Of a stretch of DNA of 64,000 bases, positions 28,101 through 60,279 are shown piece after piece; positions within the stretch are counted from its first letter, which is position 1, and every line of letters starts with the position of its first letter. Position numbers and translations under genes: made by a program. The notes beneath the pieces were generated by a model, which saw nothing but the letters and a program-made list of their open reading frames with translations, did not search any database and was not told the origin of the DNA. This stretch comes from Aeriscardovia sp. (GTDB lineage: Bacteria > Actinomycetota > Actinomycetes > Actinomycetales > Bifidobacteriaceae). The stretch is from NCBI GenBank assembly GCA_017538895.1, contig JAFYHY010000074.1:1-64000 (forward strand). The letters are read 5' to 3'.

Positions 28101-29336
28101 ATGGATGGGACCCTGTCTGAAAATCTAAGAAGTGATGAAACTGTTATTCGTGTTGTTGGCGTCGGCGGTGGTGGCGGTAATGCTGTCAACCGAATGATTG
28201 AATCTGGCGCCATGCAAGGTGTTGAGTTCATTGCTGTCAATACTGATGCAAAAGATCTTTTACGTTCTGAAGCAAATATTAAAATTTCCTTATCAGATGA
28301 AACGAGTCGTGGTTTAGGAGCTGGAGCAGATCCTGAACGTGGTGCCAAAGCTGCTCAAGACCATCAAGATGAGATCGAACAAGCCTTAAAAGGCTCTGAT
28401 ATGGTCTTTGTTACTTGCGGTGAAGGTGGTGGAACAGGTACAGGTGCTAGCCCAGTTGTAGCTCACATTGCTCGTGAACTTGGTGCTTTGACAGTAGCTG
28501 TTGTTACACGCCCATTCTCCTTCGAAGGACCACGACGTGCTGAATCAGCCGATTCTGGAATTGAAAAATTACGCAAAGAAGTTGACGCTATTATTATCAT
28601 TCCGAATGATCGTTTGCTGAGCATGAGTGATAGTAATGTCACTCTCATTGATGCTTTCAAGACAGCTGATAGTGCATTGAATGATGGTGTCGGTGGCATT
28701 ACCTTCTTGGTTAATTCTAATTCCTATATTGATGCCGATTTCAATGATATTAAGGCAATTTTGAAAGATTCCGGTACTGCATTGTTCGGTGTTGGTCAAG
28801 CTCGTGGTGATGATCGTGCTGTTAAGGCAGCTGAATTGGCTATCAGTTCTCCTTTGCTTGAAGAATCAATTGAAGGCGCTCATGGTGTCTTGATTAATAT
28901 TGCTTCTTCTATGGATGTTCAGCTGAGTGAAGTTTCAGCCATTAACAATTTGATTTTCAAGGCATCTAGCCCAGAAGCACAAATCATTTGGGGTCAGACC
29001 TTTGATGATGCTTTAGGTGATGAATTGAAAGTTACTGTCATTGCAGCTGGCTTTGATGAAAAAAAAGACTCATCTGATGAGTTAAAAGAACAGAGCTTAC
29101 CTTTTAACCAAGATATTACTGATGCGCCAGTAATATCAAAACCAGCAATGATGCCTCACGATGTTCCAACATTAAATGCTGTTCATCTGAATCAGCATGC
29201 TGAATCTGCACAACCAGTATCTTCGTCTTCAGCAACAACATCATCTCCATCCACAGTTTCTCATCTACGTTATGAAGAAAATCAAGATGAAGAAGATGCT
29301 ACTGGCGATATTGATATTCCACCATTTTTACGTTGA
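28101..29336 (+). CDS. ftsZ: Cell division protein FtsZ
   Basis: Tubulin-like GTPase that forms the division ring, 411 residues from ATG 28101 (GTG 28098 is also possible; AGAGGAG is at 28085-28091). 'VGVGGGGGNAVNRMIESG' starts the GTP-binding domain, the tubulin signature is 'GEGGGTGTGASPVVA', and the T7 region is 'NDGVGGITFLVNSN'-like. A variable linker of about 60 residues leads to the conserved C-terminal peptide 'DIDIPPFLR', the docking site for SepF and other partners. About 97 AT-rich bases upstream probably hold its promoter. First gene of the ftsZ-sepF-yggT-wag31 block. Confidence 0.98.
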   Translation: MDGTLSENLRSDETVIRVVGVGGGGGNAVNRMIESGAMQGVEFIAVNTDAKDLLRSEANIKISLSDETSRGLGAGADPERGAKAAQDHQDEIEQALKGSDMVFVTCGEGGGTGTGASPVVAHIARELGALTVAVVTRPFSFEGPRRAESADSGIEKLRKEVDAIIIIPNDRLLSMSDSNVTLIDAFKTADSALNDGVGGITFLVNSNSYIDADFNDIKAILKDSGTALFGVGQARGDDRAVKAAELAISSPLLEESIEGAHGVLINIASSMDVQLSEVSAINNLIFKASSPEAQIIWGQTFDDALGDELKVTVIAAGFDEKKDSSDELKEQSLPFNQDITDAPVISKPAMMPHDVPTLNAVHLNQHAESAQPVSSSSATTSSPSTVSHLRYEENQDEEDATGDIDIPPFLR

Positions 29337-48025: not shown

Positions 48026-49003
48026 ATGAGTCACACAGCAGTAGCAAAAGCACACGCTAACATTGCTCTTGTTAAATATTGGGGTAAAAAGAATGATGAT
48101 CTTCGTATTCCATGGTGTTCTAATATCTCAATGACTCTCCAAGATTATTGGACAGAAACACGCTTCATCCCACAGCCACAGAAGTCGTCTCGCACATTCT
48201 TTTTAAATGGCGAAGAAATACATGATGATGCAGCTTCCCGCGTTATACGGTATATTGATCGATTACAACAACACTACCATCTTACGGGCGGATACACCAT
48301 CATTTCCAACAATCATGTTCCGCTATCTGCTGGATTCGCAAGCTCAGCTTCTGGATTTGCTGCTTTAGCCGGATCATTCGCTGCAGCCTATGAGCTTGAT
48401 GTTACTCAACGAGAACTCACACGATTAGCACGCTTAGGATCAGGATCAGCCTCACGATCTATCTACGGTGGATTCGTTAAATGGGTTGCTGGCACTGATC
48501 ATCAGTCATCATTCGCCTACCCATTAGATGAATATCCTTCCTGTAATATCACTGTCATCTCCGTTACTCTCAATACAAGAGGAAAGAAAATTTCATCAAC
48601 CGAAGCAATGAGACGATCAGTAGCCTCACCATACTTCCCAACATGGGTCACAGAATGTAACCAATGCTGCACATTCATGGAAACAGCAATCCACAACAAT
48701 GATTTCACAACCATTGGCCAACTCGCACAACAAAATGCTATTGAGATGCATGCAATGACCTTATGCACTCAACCAGGCTTCACCTATTTCACACCACAAA
48801 CACTCGCTATTACCAACTTCATACAGCAGCTATGTGATAACGGATTAGAATGCTACTGGACCTGTGACGCAGGACCTAATCCAAAAATCCTTGTGCAAGC
48901 ATCACACCAACAAGAAGTAATCACTCAACTGACCGCAGCTTTCCCACACCTCACCTACGAAACCACCACCTTCGGTCCAGGAATAGAGATACGCCATGAA
49001 TAA
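48026..49003 (+). CDS. mvaD: Diphosphomevalonate decarboxylase
   Basis: Converts diphosphomevalonate to isopentenyl diphosphate with ATP. ATG 48026 follows AGGAG at 48017-48021 that overlaps the mvk stop. The 325-residue protein shows 'AHANIALVKYWGKKNDDLRI' and 'LPCSNISMTL'-type sequence ('IPWCSNISMTL'), the decarboxylase hallmark separating it from other GHMP enzymes. 'SAGFASSASGFAALA' is the ATP loop and 'RLGSGSASRSIYGGF' the catalytic segment. The 3' end overlaps pmk by 8 bases. Confidence 0.95.
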   Translation: MSHTAVAKAHANIALVKYWGKKNDDLRIPWCSNISMTLQDYWTETRFIPQPQKSSRTFFLNGEEIHDDAASRVIRYIDRLQQHYHLTGGYTIISNNHVPLSAGFASSASGFAALAGSFAAAYELDVTQRELTRLARLGSGSASRSIYGGFVKWVAGTDHQSSFAYPLDEYPSCNITVISVTLNTRGKKISSTEAMRRSVASPYFPTWVTECNQCCTFMETAIHNNDFTTIGQLAQQNAIEMHAMTLCTQPGFTYFTPQTLAITNFIQQLCDNGLECYWTCDAGPNPKILVQASHQQEVITQLTAAFPHLTYETTTFGPGIEIRHE

Positions 49004-50075
49004 TCACCAAACCGTACCAGGCAAACTCTACCTCGCCGGAGAATACGCTGCACTCCATCCAGGATCACCAGCAGTCATCATGAGCGTCAACCGATATCTC
49101 ACCGCCACCTTCCAACACACCACATACCACCAAGGACTCACCTTTACCTCCAGCCAATTCCCCAATCAACACAGCACTCTTATATCAGAACAATCCTTCA
49201 CATCACTAAACCTATATGACCCTTTCATCTTCGCTCAATCAGCGGCATTATGCGCACTACATTATTGCTATCAACACCACGCAACAGCCACACCATTACA
49301 TGGAGATATTTCCATCACCAGTACACTCAACAACGCCAACGGAACCAAACTCGGATTAGGATCATCAGCAGCCGTCACCGTTGCCATCATCAAAGTCATA
49401 CTCCACGAATACGGTTACCCCGTCGATAACTCATTACCCAGCAGACTACGCCTCTTCAAACTAGCAGCACTCGCACACTATCGCGTTCAACAGAATGGGT
49501 CTTGTGGTGATATTGCTGCTTGCACCGGAGAAGGGTTAATCGAGTATCACACCTTTGATTCCGAATGGTTAAAAGATCAACTCAAGCATTTCTCATTAAG
49601 CCATATTATTGATGATCTTCAGTGGCCAGGATTATCAATTCGTTGCCTTCCACCAGTAGAAGATCTACGCATTGTACCTGCTTGGACTGGCAAACCAGCA
49701 TCAACTTCTGCACTGATTCGGCAATGCCAACCAGTAGATCCTTTACTGATGGATGATTTTTACCGTCATACTGCTCTTTGTGTTGCGCAAATTGTGGATG
49801 GCTTTTACAAAAATAATAAAGAGTCTATATATACTGGAATCATCAGTAACAGAGAAAACTTGGAGTCTTTCGCCCAACATACTGGAATTATGTTAGAAAC
49901 ACCATTAATACAAAAAGCTTTACATATTTCTGATGATTATCAGATTGCAGCAAAGACTTCAGGTGCCGGTGGTGGTGACTGTATTATTGCAGTCAATGAA
50001 TCATCAGACCAACTCAACCAGATGATTCAAGCGTGGAAAAAAATTAGTGTCATCCCTCTTAATGAAATCATATAA
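48996..50075 (+). CDS. Phosphomevalonate kinase
   Basis: Phosphorylates 5-phosphomevalonate to the diphosphate. GHMP kinase of 359 residues: 'PGKLYLAGEYAALHPGSPAV' (motif 1), 'KLGLGSSAAVTVAI' (motif 2) and 'AAKTSGAGGGDCIIAV' (motif 3, the 'SGAGGGD' form typical of bacterial phosphomevalonate kinase). The reading frame starts inside mvaD, so they are coupled. Codon use changes within the gene: the first about 500 bases favour C-ending codons, the rest T-ending codons. Confidence 0.93.
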   Translation: MNNHQTVPGKLYLAGEYAALHPGSPAVIMSVNRYLTATFQHTTYHQGLTFTSSQFPNQHSTLISEQSFTSLNLYDPFIFAQSAALCALHYCYQHHATATPLHGDISITSTLNNANGTKLGLGSSAAVTVAIIKVILHEYGYPVDNSLPSRLRLFKLAALAHYRVQQNGSCGDIAACTGEGLIEYHTFDSEWLKDQLKHFSLSHIIDDLQWPGLSIRCLPPVEDLRIVPAWTGKPASTSALIRQCQPVDPLLMDDFYRHTALCVAQIVDGFYKNNKESIYTGIISNRENLESFAQHTGIMLETPLIQKALHISDDYQIAAKTSGAGGGDCIIAVNESSDQLNQMIQAWKKISVIPLNEII

Positions 50076-50110
50076 ATGTACATAAGTAGGGAAGTTATGG
50101 AGATATATGT

Positions 50111-51241
50111 ATGAATTTAAGTGGACAAGCTGCACAACGAAAAAATGACCATATTCGTCTTGCAAACAAACAACAGTCTGTACAACACAGTAACGATTTT
50201 GACCGTGTCAAATTGTTACGCCCAACACTGCCTGAAACACATGTACAGCAACGATCTTTACTGACTGATTTCTTTAGTCATCATGTATCAGCACCATTTT
50301 TCATTAATGCAATTACTGGTGGTACTGATACCGCCACAAAAATTAATTGTGCTTTATCACGTATTGCCCGTAAGCATCATCTTGTAATGGCTTTTGGTTC
50401 CGCTAATATCGTTGGAAAAGACCCTCAACGTTTACAAGGATTCCTTCAAGCACGACAAGAAAATCCTGATGGTCCAATCATCATTAATGTGAATCCAACA
50501 ACTCCAATTGAAACAATCCAAACTTTAATCAAACAATTAAAACCAGTAGCCTTACAAATTCATGTCAATGCTGTTCAAGAAATCGTTATGCCCGAAGGTG
50601 AACGAGACTTCCGTTGGATTACGCACATTAAACAAGTTAAGGATGCAGTTACTCTTCCAGTTATTGTCAAAGAAGTTGGTTTTGGTTTTGATATTGCATC
50701 TATTGGCCTTTTAGCACAATTAGGTGTTGATGCCATTGATATTTCTGGTCAAGGTGGAACTAATTTCGCCCTCATCGAAAATTCACGTCGTACCGAAGAA
50801 GACGATTTTAGTTATCTTGCCGATAGTGGTTTTTCAACAGTCCAATCGCTTATTAACGCGCAACTTGTTCGCCGTCTTTTTACTGAGGAAACACAACAAT
50901 CTGATCATGCGCGTAATACAGCGGCAGATACACCACAAACCATGCCATTTATTATCGCCTCTGGAGGCGTACGCAACCCTCTCGATGTTCTCAAATCTCT
51001 TGTTCTTGGAGCCCAATGGGTTGGTGTTAGCGGATCCTTCCTCCATACACTGTTATCCTACGGTGAAGACGCTCTCGATAAGCGTCTCACCACATGGAAA
51101 CAACAATTACGCAGTCTTCTCGCATTATATGGAATCCAACGACTCTCGTCAGTACATACTATTGATTGGATTACTGATAATGAACTCGAAAGTTATATGA
51201 GACAAATGAACCATAAATGCGGTTTTACATCACTTGATTAA
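50111..51241 (+). CDS. fni: Type 2 isopentenyl-diphosphate isomerase
   Basis: FMN/NADPH-dependent isomerase interconverting isopentenyl and dimethylallyl diphosphate, 376 residues. 'APFFINAITGGTDTATKINC' is the FMN loop, 'MAFGSANIV', 'VIVKEVGFGFD', 'DISGQGGTNFALIENSRR' and 'IIASGGVRNPLDVLKSLVLG' follow the TIM-barrel order. Last gene of mvk-mvaD-pmk-fni, the order known from lactic acid bacteria and some Streptomyces. The upstream mevalonate genes (HMG-CoA synthase and reductase) are not in this window. Confidence 0.95.
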   Translation: MNLSGQAAQRKNDHIRLANKQQSVQHSNDFDRVKLLRPTLPETHVQQRSLLTDFFSHHVSAPFFINAITGGTDTATKINCALSRIARKHHLVMAFGSANIVGKDPQRLQGFLQARQENPDGPIIINVNPTTPIETIQTLIKQLKPVALQIHVNAVQEIVMPEGERDFRWITHIKQVKDAVTLPVIVKEVGFGFDIASIGLLAQLGVDAIDISGQGGTNFALIENSRRTEEDDFSYLADSGFSTVQSLINAQLVRRLFTEETQQSDHARNTAADTPQTMPFIIASGGVRNPLDVLKSLVLGAQWVGVSGSFLHTLLSYGEDALDKRLTTWKQQLRSLLALYGIQRLSSVHTIDWITDNELESYMRQMNHKCGFTSLD

Positions 51242-55803: not shown

Positions 55804-55861
55804 TGAGAAGACAGTATGACATCTATAGGTTTTAAGAACATAAATGTAGTTGAGGAGTATT

Positions 55862-57754
55862 ATGCCGCAAAACGATCCAAGAAAACAACGGCGCGCATCA
55901 TCACAACCACAACCAGTTCATGAGGTGACGTCTGGTTCTACTTGGTGGACACGTCATGCCGATAATTCTCTTTTTAAGAAACGTACCATCATTATCGCTA
56001 TGATCTTAGTCGTTGCTTTAGTTTTTTGCATCGTTCGTTTAGTTGACGTGCAAATAATTCAAGGACCTAATATTGCTCAAGATGCACGAAATTCTCGCAC
56101 CGTATCGGAAGTATTACCTGCCGAACGTGGAGAAATTATTAGTAGCAATGGTGCTGTACTTGCTCAAAGTGTCCAACGATATACCATCTTTGGTGACCAA
56201 AAAACAGCAGCAACTTTTATCCCAACACCATGCACAGGTGATAATTCAGACGTTTGTAATGAAGTCAACGGGAAAACAGTTACTGGTCAAGGACCTCAAG
56301 CAGTTGCTGAACTCTTATCTCCAATTATTGGAATCAGTGTTAAAACATTAACACAAGAATTAACAGGAACAAGCGGATATGTCGTCTTAAAACGTGATGT
56401 CGTGCCTGCCATTGAACGGAACATTGAAAAATTAAATATTTCGAACATTATCGGAGCCACATTAACCACACAACGCGTGTATCCAAATAAAAAAGATATG
56501 GGCGCACTCATTGGTCTTGTCAATGCTGAAAACAAAGGTGTCGCTGGCGTTGAGGAAATGGAAAATTCTGTTCTCAGTGGTAAAGACGGGAAAGTAACCT
56601 ATCAGGAAGGTGCTGACGGTCAAGTCATCCCAGGAACAAAGAAAATTCTACAACAAGTCGAAAATGGTGGAACGGTTAAGCTCACTATTAACTCTAATGT
56701 TCAATGGTATGTTGAAAAAATGATTCGTCAAGGCGAACAAGATTACCATGCTAAATGGAGTATTGGCGTTGTCCAAGATGTTAAAACTGGACAACTTTTA
56801 GCTGTTGCTGATGGTGATGCTGACCAATTATCAGCTGAAGAAGAAGGACCACGCGCCTTTTCAACTGTCTTTGAACCAGGTTCCATTGGTAAACTCATTA
56901 CTGCATCAAACTTGCTAGAAAATAATGATATTTCTATCAATACTCAGTTCGAAGTTCCTCACGATTTTAACTTTGAAGGACAACACTATCAAGATGCAGA
57001 AGACCATCCTGTTGAACCTTGGACTCTCGCAGGCATTATCCAACATTCTTCTAACGTCGGCATCATTATGGCCTCCACAAAGTTATCGTCCGAACAACGA
57101 TACAACTGGATCAAAAAATTCGGTATTGGCGAACCATCAGGCATTGATATGCCAGGATCTTCTATTGGTATTCTTCACCCATGGCAAACATGGAGTGGAC
57201 GTATGAAACAAACTGTTCTCTTCGGCCAAGGTTATGCAACCACTGCATTACAGCTCACCAATATTGCAGCTACTATTGCCAACGGTGGAGTAATGAACGA
57301 ACAAAGCCTGATTGATTCAGTTACCGTTAATGGTAAGACAACATCCATGCTTCACCATAAACAAACACGAATCATCAGTACCAAAGTTGCCTCCGAAGTA
57401 CTCAATATGATGGCCTCGGTTGATGACCTTTACGCCAAAATGGAAAACGTCAAAGGATATGTTCTTGCAGGTAAATCTGGTACAGCGCAGGTGTGGAATC
57501 CAAAAACGAAACAGCTATCTAATACCATTGGTGACATGCTTGACGTTGTTCCATACGAGAACCCACGATATGTTGTCTTCGTCGCCTATCTAAATCCTGA
57601 CAATACCTGGGCATGTGCTAATGCTGGTCTCACAGCAATGCAAATTAGTGCATTCCTTATGCAGAAATACGCTGTTCCAGAATCTGTCCCCCGTACAGGT
57701 GCTATTCCTACTAATTGGGCAGATGAAAATTTGCTAGACAAACAACAACAATAA
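55862..57754 (+). CDS. ftsI: Septal peptidoglycan transpeptidase FtsI (PBP3-type)
   Basis: Class B penicillin-binding protein of 630 residues crosslinking septal peptidoglycan. ATG 55862 follows GAGGAG at 55852-55857. One membrane anchor (about 45-65), a pedestal domain starting 'RTVSEVLPAERGEIISSNGA', then the transpeptidase domain with 'EPGSIGKLITAS' (S-x-x-K, active Ser), 'QHSSNVGIIMA' (SxN) and 'GKSGTAQVW' (K[S/T]G). No PASTA domain follows. Unusual: the SxxK motif reads 'SIGK' rather than 'STFK' or 'SVMK', still a valid form. Confidence 0.96.
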   Translation: MPQNDPRKQRRASSQPQPVHEVTSGSTWWTRHADNSLFKKRTIIIAMILVVALVFCIVRLVDVQIIQGPNIAQDARNSRTVSEVLPAERGEIISSNGAVLAQSVQRYTIFGDQKTAATFIPTPCTGDNSDVCNEVNGKTVTGQGPQAVAELLSPIIGISVKTLTQELTGTSGYVVLKRDVVPAIERNIEKLNISNIIGATLTTQRVYPNKKDMGALIGLVNAENKGVAGVEEMENSVLSGKDGKVTYQEGADGQVIPGTKKILQQVENGGTVKLTINSNVQWYVEKMIRQGEQDYHAKWSIGVVQDVKTGQLLAVADGDADQLSAEEEGPRAFSTVFEPGSIGKLITASNLLENNDISINTQFEVPHDFNFEGQHYQDAEDHPVEPWTLAGIIQHSSNVGIIMASTKLSSEQRYNWIKKFGIGEPSGIDMPGSSIGILHPWQTWSGRMKQTVLFGQGYATTALQLTNIAATIANGGVMNEQSLIDSVTVNGKTTSMLHHKQTRIISTKVASEVLNMMASVDDLYAKMENVKGYVLAGKSGTAQVWNPKTKQLSNTIGDMLDVVPYENPRYVVFVAYLNPDNTWACANAGLTAMQISAFLMQKYAVPESVPRTGAIPTNWADENLLDKQQQ

Positions 57755-57781
57755 TAGAACTGTCAAACTAGGGAAGAAACA

Positions 57782-58741
57782 ATGGCTATACTTAGCAATG
57801 ATCGTAACCATCATTTGACAATAGACTATCTCCAACGCACTTTTAATGCGATTACAACTGAACCATTTACCAGCAGTGTAACGTTTACCTCTGTTGCCAC
57901 ATCATTAAAGAATGTTTCCCCAGGCTCTTTATTCGCACCATTAGATCCCCAAGAACACAATGAGACTGTTTACCGTCAAGCCATGTTCCGTGGAGCATAC
58001 GGTATCCTCCTAGAAAACACGCATCATTTTGCTACTCGTAGTGACCAGAACCAACCACAGTATCCTCAACACCATATTGGTATTCCAGTGATTTTAATGC
58101 GTGATGTCGCAAAGAACATTGGTTTAATCTGCTCATTTTTAGAGCAAGACCCATCACTCAAAGTAGCAATGTTTATTTGCTTTGGCATAGAAGTAAAAGA
58201 CGTTGCCGAGAAACTAGCATCACTTCTTCATATGCTTGGCAATCCAGTAGGGTTAATCTCTCAAAGCGGCCAATCATATTCCGTGAATCGGCCTCTTAAT
58301 TTGTCTTTCCCACTTGATTCATCCGCACTACAAGAAACAGAATCAATCATTGCTGAAGATGGTGCAGCAGCTCTTGTAATCGCAGCGAATGACAAAACCC
58401 TTCTACCATGGGCTTTATCAGGAACTCAAGTAGATATTTGCTGCGGATATCGTGCACTTCTTGATACAGATCAACCAGTAGAGAAATCTCATTTCCAATC
58501 ATCAGTCATTTCTGTCCAATCTCACTCATTATTTGGCGCAGTTTTTGATAATGAAACACGTATTATTGGTGATCATTCACCATATGACGTCTTAGTTGGT
58601 AGTGATATCTTTAATTATTTAATTGACGTTATTCCACTTGGTGATGCGGCTACTCGTATTGCAATTTCAATGGTTTTAGCCGCTGGAATTACACCTGAAT
58701 CGATTAAAAAGGCTGTATCTGTTTCACAAGAGTTTTCATGA
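57782..58741 (+). CDS. MurE-position Mur-ligase-like protein without P-loop
   Basis: Protein of 319 residues in the dcw slot where murE normally lies. Its N-terminal part matches the Mur ligase nucleotide-sugar domain ('VATSLKNVSPGSLFAPLDP', then 'AMFRGAYGILLE'). The next segment lines up with the central ATPase start, 'LKVAMFICFGIEVKDVAEKL' then 'LGNPVGLISQSG', but the GTNGKT phosphate-binding loop is replaced by 'CFGIEVK' (about 133-139). The protein ends where other Mur ligases still have about 160-200 residues, so it lacks most of the central and all of the C-terminal ligase domain. It therefore cannot be a normal UDP-MurNAc-tripeptide ligase. A binding or scaffold role is possible, or slow decay. 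The frame is intact. murF follows after about 50 bases. Confidence 0.72.
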   Translation: MAILSNDRNHHLTIDYLQRTFNAITTEPFTSSVTFTSVATSLKNVSPGSLFAPLDPQEHNETVYRQAMFRGAYGILLENTHHFATRSDQNQPQYPQHHIGIPVILMRDVAKNIGLICSFLEQDPSLKVAMFICFGIEVKDVAEKLASLLHMLGNPVGLISQSGQSYSVNRPLNLSFPLDSSALQETESIIAEDGAAALVIAANDKTLLPWALSGTQVDICCGYRALLDTDQPVEKSHFQSSVISVQSHSLFGAVFDNETRIIGDHSPYDVLVGSDIFNYLIDVIPLGDAATRIAISMVLAAGITPESIKKAVSVSQEFS

Positions 58742-58791: not shown

Positions 58792-60279
58792 ATGATCACA
58801 ATGGATATAAAAGAAATCGCTGAAGCTATCAACGGGCAGATTAATTTAGATGCTTTCTCTGGTGATGCCTCATCACTTCTTATTACAAATGTCAGTACTG
58901 ATTCTCGACAGGTTGTACACAATGGTCTTTTTGTGGCTATCAAAGGTGAACGTGTTGATGGCCATAATTTCTTAAATGTTGCGAAAGAAAATGGATATAT
59001 TGTTGCTCTTGTCGATCATGATATGCCTCACGCACCATTACCATACATTGTTGTTGATAATACAATAGAGGCTCTTGGACAATTAGCACAACATAATATT
59101 GATGTCCGTTACCATAATGAATCTCCTTTCACGCTGATAGGTCTGACTGGTTCGGTTGGTAAAACCACGACAAAAGATCTTCTGAAAACTATTTTGAGTG
59201 AAGAAGCACCAACAGTTGCCCCTGTTGGATCATTCAATAATGAAATTGGTCTTCCATTAACTGCGTTACATGTGAACAATGACACACGCTATTTTGTTGC
59301 TGAAATGGGAGCTAACCATCTCGGCGAAATCCGTTCCTTGACTCAGATTGCTCCTCCTACTGTCGGTATTGAATTGAAAGTCGGTACAGCGCATGTTGGT
59401 GAATTTGGAGGTGTTGAAAATATTTATGAAGCAAAATCTGAATTAGTAGAAGCACTCCCAGAACAGGGGTTTGCTTTACTGAATGCTAACGATCCTCATA
59501 TTGTTCATATGGCACAACGCACTTCCGCAGCAGTCCGCTGGTTTGGCATTATTGATGATGAATCAATGCCACTACAAACCACTGAACCACTATCCGTATA
59601 TGCTTCACACATCACATTAGATGATTTTGGACAACCGCAATTCCGCTTAACGTTTACTTCAACATCTGAAGAATATGATATTCATCTTGGTCTTGTTGGA
59701 CGCCATAATGTCATGAATGCTGTGGCTGCCGCAACAGCAGCCTATATTATTAGTGTACCAACACCAACCATTGTTCATACGTTAAATACCAGTACAGCAC
59801 TCAGCCCGCATCGTATGGCAGTACAAAATATTCATCTGAACGACCGATCCTTCACTATTCTGGATGATACATTCAACGCTAATCCAGATTCAATGCGTGC
59901 AGCACTCAACGGTCTTTTATCCTTGAAAAAAAATAAAGATACCTACACCATTGCAATCTTAGGACCAATGTTTGAATTAGGTGCTGGATCAGAACAAATG
60001 CACGCAGATATTGGTTATACCACTGCGCAATTAGGAGTCAATACACTCCTAGCAGTTGGTGTTAAAGGTAACCAATTTGGACAAGAATTAGCCCATTCCT
60101 ATGCTGAAGGAGCTCAAAAAGCGCATACCAATACTCAAATATTCTGCGTAGAAGATATCCAACAAGCTGAAACTCAACTCATGCAGTTACTCCAGGAACA
60201 TGATGATTCTATTGTTCTTTTCAAAGGGTCTCATGCCTCACAACTCAGTGAATTCGTTAATCATTTATTGTCGTTATAA
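58792..60279 (+). CDS. murF: UDP-MurNAc-tripeptide:D-Ala-D-Ala ligase MurF
   Basis: Adds D-Ala-D-Ala to the peptidoglycan precursor, 495 residues, all three Mur domains. 'STDSRQVVHNGLFVAIKGER' is the N-terminal UDP-binding part, 'LTGSVGKTTTKDLLKTIL' the P-loop, 'GSFNNEIGLPLTAL' and 'EMGANHLGEIRSLTQIA' the MurF-specific core, 'DDTFNANPDSMRAALNGL' and 'GPMFELGAGSEQMHADIG' the C-terminal domain. GGAGG lies 11 bases before the ATG. Confidence 0.96.
   Translation: MITMDIKEIAEAINGQINLDAFSGDASSLLITNVSTDSRQVVHNGLFVAIKGERVDGHNFLNVAKENGYIVALVDHDMPHAPLPYIVVDNTIEALGQLAQHNIDVRYHNESPFTLIGLTGSVGKTTTKDLLKTILSEEAPTVAPVGSFNNEIGLPLTALHVNNDTRYFVAEMGANHLGEIRSLTQIAPPTVGIELKVGTAHVGEFGGVENIYEAKSELVEALPEQGFALLNANDPHIVHMAQRTSAAVRWFGIIDDESMPLQTTEPLSVYASHITLDDFGQPQFRLTFTSTSEEYDIHLGLVGRHNVMNAVAAATAAYIISVPTPTIVHTLNTSTALSPHRMAVQNIHLNDRSFTILDDTFNANPDSMRAALNGLLSLKKNKDTYTIAILGPMFELGAGSEQMHADIGYTTAQLGVNTLLAVGVKGNQFGQELAHSYAEGAQKAHTNTQIFCVEDIQQAETQLMQLLQEHDDSIVLFKGSHASQLSEFVNHLLSL

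Follow-up and report, generated by a model that had tools for sequence, protein, structure and literature searches.

A MurE descendant without catalytic residues is retained in the dcw cluster of the Bifidobacteriaceae

Gene layout of the locus

The window analyzed in this work, a 64,000-nucleotide stretch of contig JAFYHY010000074.1 from Aeriscardovia sp., contains a dcw cluster in which an open reading frame, here termed ORFX, is located between ftsI and murF on the same strand (Table 1). The frame starts 27 bases after the end of ftsI, and murF starts 50 bases after its end. When analyzed alone, the ORFX protein of the window has no match to any Pfam or NCBIfam model and no significant sequence match in PDB, and none of 25 orthologues was matched in a Pfam scan (0/25). 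A scan of genome contigs with this single sequence recovered no relatives; with an alignment as the query, 98 relatives were identified.

Two further features of the window concern the surroundings of the cluster. The ftsZ gene is located at positions 28122-29090, ~25 kb upstream of mraW and not downstream of ftsQ. The region 48996-51241 carries genes that resemble, as judged by reading their sequences, those for a GHMP kinase and a type 2 isopentenyl-diphosphate isomerase; this mevalonate-pathway-like pair directly precedes an nrdR-like gene and the dcw cluster.

Table 1. Features of the ORFX locus in the window
Feature	Position	Strand	Description and basis
ftsI (PBP transpeptidase)	55850..57754	+	Upstream neighbour of ORFX; ORF reading; best rate-covariation partner
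Shine-Dalgarno-like GGGAAG	57771..57776	+	5 bases 5' of the ORFX ATG; sequence reading
ORFX (MurE-derived, very probable pseudoenzyme)	57782..58741	+	319 aa, ATG start; read from sequence, orthologues and model match
Domain 1 of ORFX	57815..58147	+	Residues ~12-122, MurE UDP-binding fold; alignment to 20 outgroup dcw MurE, model
Former P-loop of ORFX	58184..58201	+	Residues 135-140, GTNGKT replaced by GIEVKD; outgroup alignment
ORFX signature LHxLGNPVG	58226..58252	+	Residues 149-157; conservation in 93 orthologues
Remnant of the central-domain end of ORFX	58646..58738	+	Residues 289-319; model and alignment; outgroup MurE runs on into domain 3
murF	58792..60279	+	Downstream neighbour of ORFX; P-loop intact (GSVGKT)

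Descent from murE and changes in the protein

The murE model TIGR01085 matches the ORFX proteins of two relatives and, in an alignment of 25 orthologues (A1, with 25 invariant columns), 16 of the 25 rows at E < 0.01; the best score seen, 42.5 bits, is far under the cut-off of 257. In PDB, the ORFX profile matches the plant protein PAP11 best (E = 2e-16), and the MurE proteins of M. tuberculosis (2wtz; E = 6.9e-15) and E. coli (E = 3e-8) are also detected. The orthologues thereby establish with certainty the MurE likeness that the initial annotation had recognized from a protein with no database match of its own. A search with the A1 profile over 297 genomes of the order identified long frames outside the family, with E-values down to 1e-27 and lengths that are in nearly all cases ~490 aa or more. 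All 20 of the extra-family matches that were fetched contain GTNGKT, and 19 of them sit between ftsI and murF in a recognizable dcw cluster, so that ORFX indeed occupies the murE position, as the initial annotation had claimed.

In a tree based on 196 shared columns and rooted with MurF as the outgroup, all ORFX proteins form one clade on the MurE side with support of 100/100. The stem of this clade is long (2.3 changes per site), and the tree does not settle where the clade branches among the outgroup MurE proteins. An origin from MurF, considered as a candidate, is rejected both by this grouping and by the fold comparison (Z of 23 for MurE versus 14.7 for MurF). ORFX is a descendant of the dcw murE that other Actinomycetales have in this slot.

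The AlphaFold model of ORFX (pLDDT 83.8, pTM 0.83) superimposes with its residues 7-316 on residues 29-373 of M. tuberculosis MurE (Z = 23.2, rmsd 3.6, 274 residues), which provides the structural match to MurE that had been proposed as a check. According to the model and the alignment, domains 1 and 2 are complete and the C-terminal domain 3, which carries the amino-acid specificity loop in MurE, is absent. The claimed loss of the C-terminal ligase domain is thus borne out, the model ending at M. tuberculosis MurE residue 373 in agreement with the alignment. Retention of the Mur N-terminal fold was rightly proposed for domain 1, and its extent was understated, since the central domain is kept too.

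The GTNGKT loop of 20 outgroup dcw MurE proteins is aligned with G135-I-E-V-K-D140 of ORFX, and GxxGK[ST] is found in 0/93 distinct orthologues, as expected from the initial description of a destroyed ATP loop. Among the other elements invariant in the 20 outgroup proteins, ORFX has lost the HGA loop, the remainder of TGTNGKT after its first G, and the TT of TTP, as well as the E and S of MEVSSH, FTN, DHLD, the catalytic (carbamylated) lysine, and the N of NVxNA. The outgroup-invariant catalytic columns (the lysine, DHLD, the E of MEVSSH, and TTP, which keeps only its P) are preserved in at most 5 of 25 orthologues. A split enzyme, with domain 3 supplied by another protein, was considered and rejected, as the P-loop of ORFX is itself lost.

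A different set of residues is strictly conserved among the 93 orthologues, namely T36, G48, L50, G71, Y73, P102, A129, F131, L149, H150, G153, N154, P155, R170, P177, E192, G194, D218, A301, and A311. The signature LHxLGNPVG contributes L149, H150, G153, N154, and P155 to this set. MurE rarely or never carries Y73, H150, N154, P155, or L212, and such ORFX-specific positions are a sign of changed function and not of erosion. Some orthologues also differ in length: a long variable insertion follows residue ~222 in ORFX of two loci (L090 and L091 of groups g14 and g15) and probably in genomes G071 and G119 as well, near the position of the catalytic lysine segment of MurE.

Family-wide retention, selection, and a second MurE

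By protein search, ORFX was found in 177 of 189 Bifidobacteriaceae genomes, including all 161 genomes of good quality (completeness of at least 90% and contamination of at most 5%); the 12 genomes without a match are incomplete (57-89%). The motif scan of genome contigs left 80 loci, all of them from Bifidobacteriaceae, with named loci in Bifidobacterium, Gardnerella, Pseudoscardovia, and Aeriscardovia. The nearest relatives of ORFX from the window are found in Aeriscardovia metagenome-assembled genomes from ruminants. The order ftsI-ORFX-murF was read directly at 69 of the 80 named loci and mraW-ORFX-murF at seven, and at the other four the sorting was probably disturbed by overlapping frames. 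Across the core family, ORFX has not moved from its dcw position ahead of murF. With regard to neighbouring genes, the reduced Aeriscardovia genomes G175-G181 (group g13) appear to lack dcw ftsI, ftsL, ftsW, and ftsQ, yet keep FtsZ.

Seven genomes without ORFX form the sister clade of the core Bifidobacteriaceae. In three genomes of group g11 and in g16, ftsI is directly beside murF, ORFX is absent, and another MurE, with GTDGKT, is encoded elsewhere; in g11 it is inverted between ftsW and murG. The origin of ORFX is on the stem of the core family, or the gene was lost in the sister lineage. In G167 and G169 of the ORFX-less sister lineage (loci L080 and L082), the GTDGKT MurE gene lies in reverse orientation between ftsW and murG; no murD was detected within the dcw cluster.

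The dN/dS ratio of ORFX (Nei-Gojobori) is 0.04-0.22 in 16 species pairs, the 17th pair having saturated dS, and is similar to that of murF and ftsI in the same pairs. ORFX is among the faster-evolving proteins of the dcw cluster. Both evolutionary checks proposed with the initial annotation, the search for orthologues in the family and the measurement of dN/dS, which is not near 1, agree with its view that plain decay is not the explanation, as do the single origin and the new invariant residues. Loss of catalytic residues, preservation of the fold, purifying selection, and family-wide retention are the marks of a pseudoenzyme, and we conclude with high confidence that ORFX is a family-wide pseudoenzyme derived from MurE, arisen once, and not a product of decay.

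The initial annotation had predicted that a true murE must be present elsewhere in the genome. One other full-length protein of the MurE class is indeed encoded in the same genome (C87:74918-76486, minus strand, 522 aa), 11 kb past the end of the window and beside folC. It retains GTKGKT, TTP, MEISS, SPDH, and the YSKRR lysine, and scores best with the PRK00139.2 models (595 bits), followed by 381 bits for PRK14022 (L-lysine type) and 252 bits for TIGR01085, just below the cut-off. Because its motifs are intact, this protein, related to the L-lysine-adding type, presumably performs the ligase step. Its relatives (T-type MurE) were found in all 164 genomes searched, including 161/161 of good quality. 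Many Bifidobacterium genomes have two tandem T-type MurE genes (e.g., G019:C1:716187-719313 and G041:C1:1699010-1702161, and also G065, G043, G094, G111, and others), the second copy having ~51-55% identity to the query.

Candidate partners and role of ORFX

The reduced Aeriscardovia genomes (group g13, 0.6-0.9 Mb), with their seven named loci of the order mraW-ORFX-murF, bear on the choice of partner. In six of these genomes the PBP transpeptidases number two, not three, and there is a single SEDS protein, not two; the two remaining genes are adjacent, like a rodA-pbpA pair, and FtsZ is present. The examined dcw stretch of one g13 genome (G180, locus L040) yielded no ftsI, ftsL, ftsW, or ftsQ. 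ORFX is retained in the group with dN/dS of 0.04-0.12, together with murF, mraY, murD, murG, and murC. Its persistence where dcw ftsI and ftsW have been lost implies that FtsI is not the sole partner of ORFX.

Rate covariation was analyzed for 11 genes (55 gene pairs) in 51 genomes with the tree fixed; ftsI-ORFX ranks first of all pairs (rho = 0.51, p = 9e-8), followed by ftsI-ftsW (rho = 0.49). FtsI and FtsW form a known complex, and this pair serves as a positive control. The correlation of ORFX with mraY is 0.43 over all branches and 0.01 over terminal branches. In the same 51 genomes, rho is -0.02 for murF and -0.17 for the true murE, and near zero or slightly negative for murG and murC. 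The ftsI-ORFX pair remains first without the Aeriscardovia-side branches (0.45) and also without groups g6 and g15 (0.47), and 74% of resamplings of half of the branches keep it in the top three. Adjacency is an unlikely source of this signal, as the equally adjacent ORFX-murF pair has a rho of -0.02. In a second sample of 57 named genomes and six genes, ORFX correlates with ftsI at 0.41 (terminal branches, 0.48) and with murF at 0.25 (terminal branches, 0.55). In a set of 17 genomes with out-of-cluster genes added, the ftsI-ORFX rho was 0.30 and not significant.

The covariation with ftsI is thus an indirect lead and not proof. With respect to the partners named initially, binding to FtsI is supported by covariation, and binding to MurF or MurD has little such support. 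The results from the reduced genomes and from covariation conflict, but they can be reconciled if ORFX has a broader range of membrane partners (MraY, or RodA-PbpA in the dwarf genomes), a reading that we favour with modest confidence.

The best explanation of the data as a whole, which we hold tentatively and at a little under an even chance, is that a dead MurE has turned into an adaptor. As the analyses show, the dcw murE ancestral to ORFX lost its ATP loop, catalytic residues, and third domain a single time, on the core-family stem, and a different full-length MurE (PRK00139.2 class) at another locus presumably performs the ligase step. The dead copy was kept under purifying selection as a folded two-domain protein and gained the invariant LHxLGNP; it may now be a cytoplasmic non-catalytic adaptor that joins or regulates membrane wall synthesis, with FtsI-FtsW, MraY, and perhaps RodA-PbpA in reduced genomes as candidate targets. 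That ORFX is a non-catalytic adaptor on the membrane-synthase side, and neither a soluble Mur ligase subunit nor a store of UDP-MurNAc, is plausible and somewhat short of probable. More speculative is the proposal that, once another MurE type had assumed the chemistry, the ligase was converted a single time, at the bifidobacterial root, into a dedicated non-catalytic regulator linking precursor synthesis with the wall synthases of the membrane.

The main rival to the adaptor reading is that ORFX acts in a complex of soluble Mur ligases, as a scaffold or an allosteric subunit, its old docking surfaces holding MurF, MurG, or the relocated MurE together for channelling. Several observations are in its favour: the ORFX gene immediately precedes murF; MurE-MurF fusions are known, the Bordetella fusion binding MurG (PMC6420597; review PMC4929429); and the reduced genomes retain ORFX with the Mur genes listed above, minus dcw ftsI and ftsW. 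The co-occurrence of ORFX and T-type MurE in 161/161 genomes, with another MurE type in the ORFX-less lineages, also fits this proposal, but it represents a single phylogenetic event and therefore counts once. Given the near-zero covariation of ORFX with murF, murG, murC, and the true murE in the 51 genomes, we consider such a scaffold rather unlikely.

A moonlighting role outside wall synthesis, comparable to that of PAP11 in the plastid RNA polymerase, appears improbable. PAP11 is a close fold match of ORFX in addition to being the best PDB match of its profile; however, it is longer and keeps GTNGKT, so the likeness reflects common MurE ancestry and not common loss, and the constant position of ORFX before murF across the core family also speaks against a role elsewhere.

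The substrate cleft of MurE is formed by domain 1 and the central domain and is lined by HGA, TTP, MEVSSH, and the catalytic lysine. ORFX could on this basis bind a wall precursor (UDP-MurNAc-dipeptide or tripeptide) without ATP and, as a sensor, signal its supply to the synthesis machinery, since both domains are folded and conserved and P177 (of TTP), E192, and D218 are still invariant. We regard this as quite improbable: nearly all orthologues have lost these cleft-lining motifs (HGA, the TT of TTP, MEVSSH, and the catalytic lysine), and the fold topology suggests that the new invariant residues, which occupy helix ends and turns, are remote from the former nucleotide site. The earlier suggestion that the protein holds UDP-MurNAc precursors is disfavoured by the same losses, including that of SSH. 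Finally, plain decay, by which ORFX would be a remnant pseudogene awaiting erasure, could account for the disappearance of all catalytic residues and one domain and for the very long stem branch, but it is rejected as extremely improbable because the dN/dS of an open frame over the whole family and the ~20 residues invariant in 93 orthologues contradict it, as does retention of ORFX in 0.6-0.9 Mb genomes.

The dcw cluster is among the most conserved bacterial gene neighbourhoods, and Mur ligases are treated as pure enzymes. Enzymes that have turned structural are already known. We found no description of a bifidobacterial dcw MurE or Mur-ligase pseudoenzyme in the open-access literature. The retention of a dead MurE across a family of gut bacteria that includes Gardnerella indicates that a Mur ligase can change its role within its home operon, and it calls for caution in annotation, as the working murE of bifidobacteria is not the one located between ftsI and murF. 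ORFX offers a small testable protein for studying how precursor supply is coordinated with the FtsI-FtsW synthase. If the proposed explanation is true, ORFX would be a family-wide bacterial MurE pseudoenzyme and would give a major gut group a division or wall factor specific to its lineage.

Among known systems, the closest by position is the dcw MurE of other Actinomycetales, which occupies the same slot between ftsI and murF. M. tuberculosis MurE (2wtz/2xja) shares the fold of domains 1 and 2 with ORFX (Z of 23); in contrast to MurE, ORFX has no P-loop, carbamylated lysine, DHLD, SSH, or third domain. The true bifidobacterial MurE (PRK00139.2-3) belongs to the same fold family and is encoded in the same genomes, but it is full length, with GTKGKT, TTP, and SS intact, and is located at another locus and in a separate clade. 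The Bordetella MurE-MurF fusion (8f5d), which shows that the neighbourhood of MurE and MurF can mean physical association (PMC6420597), matches the fold of ORFX with a Z of 18.6, although its MurE part, unlike ORFX, is a full-length ligase with a P-loop. A MurE homologue with another role is already known in plants: PAP11 belongs to the plastid RNA polymerase as a peripheral component (PMC12681378); it is much longer than ORFX and keeps the GTNGKT loop that ORFX has lost.
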